Shown: positions 23,523-24,284 of the stretch, piece after piece | Layout of the letters: the number at the start of each line of letters is the position of its first letter | Position numbering within the stretch: position 1 is the stretch's first letter | From: Litoreibacter halocynthiae | GTDB lineage: Bacteria > Pseudomonadota > Alphaproteobacteria > Rhodobacterales > Rhodobacteraceae | Direction: 5' to 3' | DNA: 64,000 nt | Assembly: GCF_004365635.1 (NCBI RefSeq) | Contig: NZ_SOBH01000001.1 | Location: 434,001 to 498,000 of the forward strand | Program-made: the position numbers and the translations under genes | Notes under the pieces: generated by a model | The model's input: the letters and a program-made list of their open reading frames with translations, nothing else | Databases searched by the model: none | Told to the model about the DNA's origin: nothing

Positions 23523-23562
23523 CACAAAAAAAACGGTGATGCAGGGAGGATGCATCACCGTT
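23523..23562 (-). terminator. Intrinsic terminator with CCUCCC loop ending the sRNA array
   Basis: Read on the minus strand, a perfect 12-bp stem (AACGGTGATGCA with its complement, 23532-23543 and 23551-23562) closes a 7-nt loop TCCTCCC and runs into a T-tract of six further residues. It ends the transcript that comes from the DUF1127 gene through the four CCUCCUCCC hairpins. The loop keeps six bases of the same motif, so the terminator is itself a diverged member of the array. Confidence 0.9.
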
Positions 23563-23570
23563 CTTATGTG

Positions 23571-23723
23571 CGGCTCCGATCAGGGAGGAGGAAGATCATC
23601 GCCGTATTTCGGGCAACCTCGGGAGGAGGTGAAGTTGCTCCGATCTGGTTAGTAGCGGCACCTAAGGGAGGAGGAAGGTGCCGCCACTAAAGCGAATCCG
23701 GCTTAAGGGAGGAGGAAAGCCGG
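23571..23723 (-). ncRNA. CcsR/cuckoo-like sRNA array: four CCUCCUCCC-loop hairpins
   Basis: Four consecutive hairpins on the minus strand, each with a 12-nt loop containing CCUCCUCCC. In order of transcription they are 23698-23723 (7-bp stem), 23651-23688 (13 bp with one G-U), 23613-23638 (7 bp with one G-U) and 23571-23604 (4 bp, a G-U, tandem G-A mismatches, 4 bp). Spacers are 8-12 nt. Stem sequences differ while loops are conserved, so selection appears to act on the loop. CCUCCU is anti-Shine-Dalgarno. This is the architecture of the stress-induced CcsR RNAs of Rhodobacter sphaeroides, which carry two such hairpins each and are processed from a transcript with a DUF1127 gene. By that measure there are two CcsR units here. 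Processing sites and units are inferred. Confidence 0.85.
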
Positions 23724-23733
23724 GAACGCAAAC

Positions 23734-23946
23734 TCAATTCTTGAAAGCCGCGTCGTGTGCGATTGCTTTCAGGTTACCGCGGCACAGGCCCAAATCAGCC
23801 AATTCGCGATTGCTCAGCGCTTGCAACTCATCCAGAGTTTGGCGGTACAGGCGGTGTTTCGTGTGGCGTTCTGCCAAATCGTTTTTGAATGCGACCAGAC
23901 GTTCAATCAGGGTCGGCGCGGTGCGGATGCTCGTTGTGTAAGCCAT
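23734..23946 (-). CDS. ccaF1: DUF1127 small protein, CcaF1-like
   Basis: A 70-residue basic protein with a C-terminal DUF1127 motif (YRQTLDELQALSNRELADLG, then LCRGNLKAIAHDAA). In Rhodobacter sphaeroides the DUF1127 protein CcaF1 is an RNA-binding factor co-transcribed with CcsR sRNAs that influences their maturation and that of UpsM. Small DUF1127 proteins in other alphaproteobacteria affect phosphate, carbon and RNA metabolism. The stop lies 10 nt before the first CCUCCUCCC hairpin, so gene and array form one transcript. I prefer the ATG at 23946 because AAAGG is 9-10 nt upstream; an ATG at 23952 would add two residues but crowd the ribosome site. The link to CcaF1 is by family and context. 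Confidence 0.85.
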   Translation of the reverse strand: MAYTTSIRTAPTLIERLVAFKNDLAERHTKHRLYRQTLDELQALSNRELADLGLCRGNLKAIAHDAAFKN

Positions 23947-23952
23947 TTTCAT

Positions 23953-24284
23953 CTACCTTTCAGTCCAGGGTTTCTCTGTCAGCGATCTGACGCCCTCGTC
24001 TCTGTTGACCTCAATCTAGTGAATTGCTGCGCTGCAACAATAGATAGATTTACAATGCCGCTATGCAGCGAACGCATGGCTTAACGCATTGTTTTTGTTA
24101 CCTTACGTCAGTCAAATTATGACGTTTTTGTGAAGCCTGTTACCGCTGTCATCGCTTTCATCGGGATGCTCTACAAATGGGCGGGCTGAAAACATTTGCG
24201 ACGGATTGGCGTGCGGGGTTGCCCTTCGCGGCATGTGCGCTCACTTAGACAGGGACGAAATTTGATCGAAGACAGGAAGCCTCC
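23953..24284. other. Intergenic region between DUF1127 and mrp genes
   Basis: A 332-bp divergent gap. On the minus strand a possible promoter TTGTTG, 16 bp, TAGATT (roughly 24017-24044) could drive the DUF1127/sRNA transcript. It overlaps a dyad TTGC-T-GCGC-T-GCAA at 24024-24037, a plausible operator of the CTGC/GCAG kind, but the cognate protein is unknown. I see no clear RpoH-type promoter, although stress control would be expected from the Rhodobacter model. The remaining right-hand part, AT-rich near 24090-24130, should hold the mrp promoter; I see no gene in it. Confidence 0.4.

Follow-up and report, generated by a model that had tools for sequence, protein, structure and literature searches.

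The DNA analysed here is a 64-kb stretch of the Litoreibacter halocynthiae genome (hereafter the window), in which a short DUF1127 gene on the minus strand is preceded by a two-box promoter and followed by a tandem array of hairpins. Read along the minus strand, the features are as follows.

24053..24069, minus strand: Box 1, GCTGCATAGCGGCATTG, one base off CTGCNNNGCAG (from a 17-mer pattern across the family)
24038..24040, minus strand: likely -35 element, TTG, probably of RpoH type (from the offset to the -10-like element in relatives)
24025..24039, minus strand: Box 2, a PhaR-like palindrome, TGTTGCAGCGCAGCA, in the promoter spacer (position weight matrix, rank 1 of 63,980)
24014..24019, minus strand: likely -10 element, CTAGAT (CTANNT-like element at the same offset in 37 of 64 promoters)
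23734..23952, minus strand: DUF1127 gene, 72 aa, CcaF1-like by domain and position (PF06568, 43.1 bits, cut-off 23.3)
23698..23723, minus strand: hairpin 1, CCUCCUCCC in a 12-nt loop (fold, motif positions)
23649..23690, minus strand: hairpin 2, 15-bp stem, CCUCCUCCC in a 12-nt loop (fold, motif positions)
23609..23643, minus strand: hairpin 3, CCUCCUCCC in a 10-nt loop (fold; inside the Rfam ar14 match)
23571..23604, minus strand: hairpin 4, interrupted stem, CCUCCUCCC in a 12-nt loop (fold; inside the ar14 match)
23525..23565, minus strand: terminator hairpin, 15-bp stem, UCCUCCC loop and U-run (fold; ends the ar14 match)

The DUF1127 protein shares 85% identity with its Litoreibacter ascidiaceicola counterpart. 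A LysE-type gene follows the array, and a divergent Mrp/NBP35-like gene (PF10609) lies upstream. A short DUF1127 gene (PF06568) just upstream of the hairpins on the same strand, across a 10-nt gap, is the arrangement of the CIN1 locus, a term used for DUF1127 genes with CcsR-like RNAs (PMC10253847). Immediately ahead of the DUF1127 start, we observed a 5'-UTR hairpin, GTCAGATCGCTGAC, at 23978-23991. This GTCAG-N4-CTGAC element was dropped as a general promoter feature, being present in 6 of 65 promoters, all from Litoreibacter.

An earlier note on this DNA had described a minus-strand array of anti-Shine-Dalgarno (aSD) hairpins starting 10 nt past the DUF1127 stop, and this position was borne out. 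The motif CCTCCTCCC occurs four times in the window, on the minus strand only (23715, 23674, 23629 and 23591), and UCCUCCC of the terminator lies at 23550 on the same strand. The loops of hairpins 1-4 and the terminator measure 12, 12, 10, 12 and 7 nt; the four 12-nt motif loops previously described are therefore correct for hairpins 1, 2 and 4 but not for hairpin 3, and the terminator does carry the motif, although as the 7-nt UCCUCCC rather than CCUCCC. Every motif base had an unpaired probability of 0.99-1. The minimum free energy of the 207-nt array was -91.7 kcal/mol, compared with -50.6 (s.d. 4.2) for 200 dinucleotide shuffles, none of which was as good (0/200; z -9.76). Genome-wide enrichment of the bare 9-mer motif was rejected as support for the array, since no enrichment was found (18 copies against 27 for the backwards pattern used as control). 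It is the clustering that is unusual: TCCTCCC-N10-40-TCCTCCC occurs four times in the L. halocynthiae genome and its control not once.

Comparison of the inner hairpins with those of more distant relatives agreed with the previous view that the loops are kept while the stems vary. Substitutions affected 0 of 36 motif bases and 16 of 92 stem bases in G004, and 1 of 36 and 24 of 91, respectively, in G006. Exceptions were found in hairpin 1 of L. albidus (2 of 36) and of G013 (6 of 36, partly an alignment shift). The nearest relatives, L. ascidiaceicola and L. meonggei, had 0 and 1 changed stem bases, too few for a loop/stem comparison. We also aligned the window with seven relatives on the window's own fold, a choice that favours pairing, and 95.3% of cells paired. 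Pairing of the stems was retained through two-sided changes in 11 of 61 pairs, a value reached by none of 500 shuffles and compared with 0-4 in slid controls. The number of pair types in this alignment showed no excess, as 296 of the 500 shuffles reached the observed value.

The earlier note had proposed a covariance-model search of the locus, and across the entire window a single Rfam hit exceeded its cut-off: ar14 (RF02344) at 23527-23648, with 65.6 bits against 58.8. Both hairpin pairs matched CcsR1 (RF02791) at 34.0 and 33.7 bits, below its cut-off of 65.3. The structure is that of the cuckoo class (tandem hairpins, CCUCCUCCC unpaired in the loops, variable stems), membership being judged here from motif, fold and covariation. 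Thus, the previous description as a CcsR/cuckoo-type aSD array in a DUF1127 3' UTR was right as to the class, whereas the Rfam family is ar14 and the scores stay under the CcsR1 cut-off. When the loci of nine relatives were scanned, two reached the CcsR1 cut-off (G071 and G111), three matched ar14 and four matched neither; G071 and G111 bear promoter boxes of the same kind as the window. In Rhizobiales, RNAs have been described that carry CCUCCUCCC in the loops of three or four hairpins and vary more in the stems, and RS0680a of Rhodobacter sphaeroides has two (PMC3927594). The same anatomy has already been published, and the main points of the earlier note are therefore known for the class. 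We have high confidence that the array RNA is a further, ordinary member of the ar14/cuckoo/CcsR/NfeR1 class.

Matches to ar14 (E 0.001) were present in all 21 genomes of the genus and in 121 of 149 family genomes, and the paired motif TCCTCCC-N10-40-TCCTCCC, as a raw count, in 138 of the 149. Arrays contained 3-8 hairpins (median 4) in the 21 genus genomes and 2-17 (median 9) among 43 arrays from other genera; the latter comprise the 29 best ar14 scorers and 14 of 20 regions chosen largely for several ar14 hits, a choice that favours multiple hits and so biases the size range upward. With five hairpins, the array in the window is above the genus median and small beside those of other genera. 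Multiple loci of one genome were merged into its largest array. DUF1127 was found within 84 nt upstream of 21/21 genus arrays and 40/43 other main arrays, six loci without a DUF1127 hit having been labelled secondary and excluded from both sets (for G117, this was its sole locus).

Some of the secondary arrays deserve mention. In G156 (contig C4), a genome without a PhaR hit, a two-hairpin array in AT-rich sequence beside an mrp-like gene, with no DUF1127 between, looks like a free-standing form. Two secondary two-hairpin arrays of G114 (C1:1651500-1652500 and C2:345100-346000) lie on different contigs and share 371 identical nt including upstream sequence, as would follow from intragenomic copying of a small RNA cassette. 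G059 likewise has secondary arrays with paired motifs, at C16:6324, C17:202 and C62:106022, and two of these have identical matched letters.

With regard to array growth, repeats indicative of recent growth were looked for in two arrays, and both show a tandem two-hairpin unit (5.4 copies of 114 bp in G071, 4.8 copies of 103 bp in G108); no tandem repeat of such a unit is present in the window. The terminal motif was counted only where a T-run adjoins the last motif hairpin (56 of 68 arrays), because the final motif hairpin detected need not be the terminator (that of L. arenae was missed). It was the full CCTCCTCCC in 48 arrays and a short form in 8, including the window. In six of seven aligned relatives, L. 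arenae being the exception, the terminator motif is longer than in the window, whose motif therefore looks shortened. We thus rejected the previous suggestion that the array grew by duplication of a terminator-like hairpin: the full motif stands in the last motif hairpin, beside a T-run, in 48 of 56 arrays, the growth unit elsewhere is 103-114 bp with two hairpins, and the window has no such repeat.

Alignment of the upstream regions of four Litoreibacter relatives revealed an unusually conserved region that lies no more than about 150 nt ahead of the gene. Box 2 is one of two exact genome matches to TGYTGCRNYGCARCA. The 17-mer GCYGCATRGCRGCATTG has 69 occurrences spread over 64 of the 149 family genomes (none for the reversed control) and only one in the genome studied here, at Box 1; motif hairpins occurred no more than 900 nt downstream at 29 of 30 fetched places. 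The start-to-start spacing from Box 1 to Box 2 was 27-29 nt in 62 of 64 promoters. A CTANNT-like -10 element stands 21 nt after the first TTG of the Box 2 palindrome in 37 of the 64, and CCCAT-type elements were seen by eye elsewhere. The array promoter thus appears to have an RpoH-type layout. An RpoHI/RpoHII promoter has been reported for R. sphaeroides ccaF1 (PMC10253847), and for the homologous rsp_0557 the RpoHI/HII promoter elements have been given as -35 TTG and -12 TAT (PMC10673084). The promoter with two PhaR-like boxes is the new part of the locus.

PhaR was the sole regulator tried, prompted by its R. sphaeroides consensus. The reported binding sequence of PhaR in that species is CTGCNNNGCAG, and the palindromes bound by PhaR of S. 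meliloti, such as TTGTGCACTGCACAA, include one at the sRNA gene mmgR (PMC12542648). A matrix of ten S. meliloti sites, chosen among 14 described as efficient in EMSA, placed Box 2 first of the 63,980 window positions with 20.6 bits (next, 12.8). Box 2 was again first with a matrix of all 14 (22.2 against 14.6 bits) and with a sister-species matrix of 16 distal phaR-locus boxes that left out the genome under study (20.9 against 16.9). Permuted matrices ranked the promoter first in 1 of 200 (S. meliloti) and 3 of 200 (sister species) cases. Box 1 scored low, with 0.9 and 9.9 bits by the S. meliloti and sister-species matrices, respectively.

Across the family, a site of at least 12 bits in the N3 or N4 form was present in 60 of 65 DUF1127-array promoters and in 1 of 63 downstream controls; the 65 comprise every array for which a DUF1127 hit and a sufficient length of upstream sequence were available, and four lie on named contigs. 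Box 2 has N4 rather than N3 spacing in most other genera, and the N4 matrix was built after inspecting the sites; the unmodified N3 matrix alone reached 12 bits in 28 of 65 array promoters and 0 of 63 controls. The promoters below 12 bits were those of G016, G018, G019 and G096 (10.8-11.8) and N096 (8.0). Within the genus, at least 12 bits were reached by 3 of 20 DUF1127 promoters without an array and by only 7 of 10 with one. A box promoter also stands 46-135 nt before an array with no DUF1127 between in six genomes (G068, G082, G086, G114a, G133 and G160); boxes belonging to DUF1127 rather than to the array would be expected to be missing there. G161, which also has no DUF1127 hit, is not among the six, its box being 276 nt off. 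Among 14 loci picked by hand, in some cases because box and array lie close together, 11 reached 12 bits; G140 and the two secondary arrays of G114 have no 12-bit site.

PhaR (PF07879) was found in 144 of 149 family genomes, including the one studied here (95.5 bits, G000:C2:106367-106549). Its gene lies behind a Phasin_2-like gene (22.0 bits, under the cut-off of 24.9), upstream of which (G000:C2:107998) are two boxes 26 nt apart with 23.7 and 8.2 bits. Such pairs, 26-28 nt apart, were identified at 6 of 20 phaR loci of the genus. In other genera, boxes were present upstream of phaR in 18 of 20 loci (reversed control, 0 of 20), the two exceptions being G106 and G108, which have no box there although their array promoters have one, and in 5 of 20 there were N4-spaced sites no further than 80 nt from where the PhaR domain begins. 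Another PhaR-box-like site (16.5 bits) was seen at G000 C1:816447, before a 423-aa ORF that is RodZ-like by eye.

Of the five genomes that lack a PhaR hit, G023 alone is complete and also has a DUF1127-array operon; TTG and CATATGTT are retained in the promoter of this operon, and both boxes are missing (maximum, 8.8 bits). G118 has no PhaR hit yet bears a 22-bit box, in an assembly that is 84% complete. G156, with neither a PhaR nor a DUF1127 hit, has 10.8 bits upstream of its array, which is sub-threshold yet not low, and no array match was found in G053 and G110. The strict 17-mer is missing in all five of these genomes, as it is in 80 of the remaining 144; this co-absence is therefore uninformative alone and was dropped as support. 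A literature search returned nothing joining PhaR to DUF1127, CcsR, CcsR1 or CcaF1 in the parts of the publications that were accessible; PMC9230146 mentions PhaR and DUF1127 in unrelated passages. PhaR control of the array promoter is thus a prediction with good sequence support, which we consider somewhat more probable than its opposite.

At the level of sequence, the locus consists of the gene, five hairpins with exposed motifs, a terminator, stems with compensatory changes and a conserved two-box promoter. We consider it likely that it yields a multivalent aSD sRNA of the ar14/cuckoo class from the 3' UTR of the DUF1127 mRNA, under stress control and predicted PhaR control. Judging from the studied relatives, transcription would begin at the RpoH-type promoter in stress, RNase E, aided by the DUF1127 protein, would free the hairpins, and the loops would pair with purine-rich ribosome-binding sites and block the translation of several mRNAs. 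In R. sphaeroides, RNase E and CcaF1 are reported to release CcsR1-4 from the 3' UTR of ccaF1, whose promoter is of the RpoHI/RpoHII type (PMC8625941, PMC10253847), and C1 metabolism and pyruvate dehydrogenase are reported as processes on which the CcsR RNAs act (PMC8625941); the aSD loops of NfeR1 silence ntrB and other mRNAs (PMC10746234, PMC7143759), with loop pairing to the ribosome-binding site as the reported mode of repression. What we add is that PhaR, a sensor of stored polyhydroxybutyrate (PHB), may occupy Boxes 1 and 2 and repress the promoter. PHB granules would then titrate PhaR off, so that the RNA would be produced under stress in cells with plentiful carbon in store. In search of perfect-complement targets, we inspected the remaining 14 CCTCCTCCC sites in the genome for GGGAGGAGG ahead of a start codon; only one was convincing and no target is claimed. 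In this candidate, GGGAGGAGG at G000:C2:127990-127998 precedes the ATG of a Flavodoxin_5 gene by 5 nt.

The promoter could also be read without any role of PhaR, if another regulator binds the boxes or if these belong to an extended RpoH-type promoter. Box 2 opens with the likely -35 TTG and sits in the spacer, so that conservation of the overlapping RpoH promoter could explain part of it, and the operon of R. sphaeroides is reported to be under RpoHI/HII control (PMC10253847). The box of G118 without a PhaR hit and the array promoters under 12 bits point in the same direction, PhaR binding itself being a prediction. On the other hand, matrices made from PhaR-type sites alone rank Box 2 first in 64 kb, Box 1 lies upstream of the -35 element at near-constant spacing, G023 keeps -35 and -10-like elements but loses the boxes, and a similar two-box layout stands upstream of phaR/phaP. 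We therefore regard a promoter without PhaR as possible but doubtful, and retain PhaR control as the preferred reading.

Two further alternatives concern the array itself. It might be a decoy whose loops bind the DUF1127 protein or another factor, tuning its activity rather than silencing mRNAs. Six genomes combine boxes and array with no DUF1127 between, G156 has an array and no DUF1127 hit, and NfeR1 motifs are described as silencing target mRNAs directly; these observations make a decoy improbable, even though RNA binding by CcaF1 and an effect of this protein on CcsR levels have been reported (PMC10253847) and a hairpin number of 2-17 could vary as in a sponge. Least probable by far is that the hairpins merely stabilise the 3' end of the DUF1127 mRNA and terminate transcription, with an incidental loop motif. 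The stable stems and the terminator would suit such a role, but stems change while loops are kept, arrays occur without a DUF1127 mRNA, and the cuckoo relatives are described as working through the motif.

Returning to the multivalent aSD sRNA under stress and PhaR control, we lean slightly towards a broader view in which an RpoH-type promoter with two PhaR boxes drives an aSD RNA of 2-17 hairpins as a module of Rhodobacteraceae, with DUF1127 as a detachable passenger. If this is true, stored carbon (via PhaR) and stress would together set a broad dial on translation initiation. A PhaR operator would give CcsR-type RNAs a metabolic input, the inputs described for them in the available sources being stress sigma factors. 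The link between PhaR and the array would also parallel that between PhaR and MmgR in S. meliloti and help explain the conservation of the promoter.

MmgR belongs to another sRNA family, which is not known to have an aSD array. Its promoter is described as having the PhaR site CAATTGTGCACCGCAGCATTA, which is close to Box 2 (PMC12542648). For the cuckoo family and the CIN1 locus, papers citing Reinkensmeier and Giegerich (2015) describe the loop motif, variable stems and a DUF1127 neighbour, as found here. The ar14/NfeR1 RNA of Sinorhizobium has three hairpins with CCUCCUCCC loops and variable stems, and its model is matched by hairpins 3-5 of the window; NfeR1 is described with its own sigma-70 promoter, whereas the window has five hairpins behind a DUF1127 gene. 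The CcsR1-4/ccaF1 operon of R. sphaeroides, as described, is similar in its DUF1127 gene followed by aSD hairpins and a terminator and in its RpoH-type promoter; it contains four units, whereas the window holds the equivalent of two and scores below the RF02791 cut-off.
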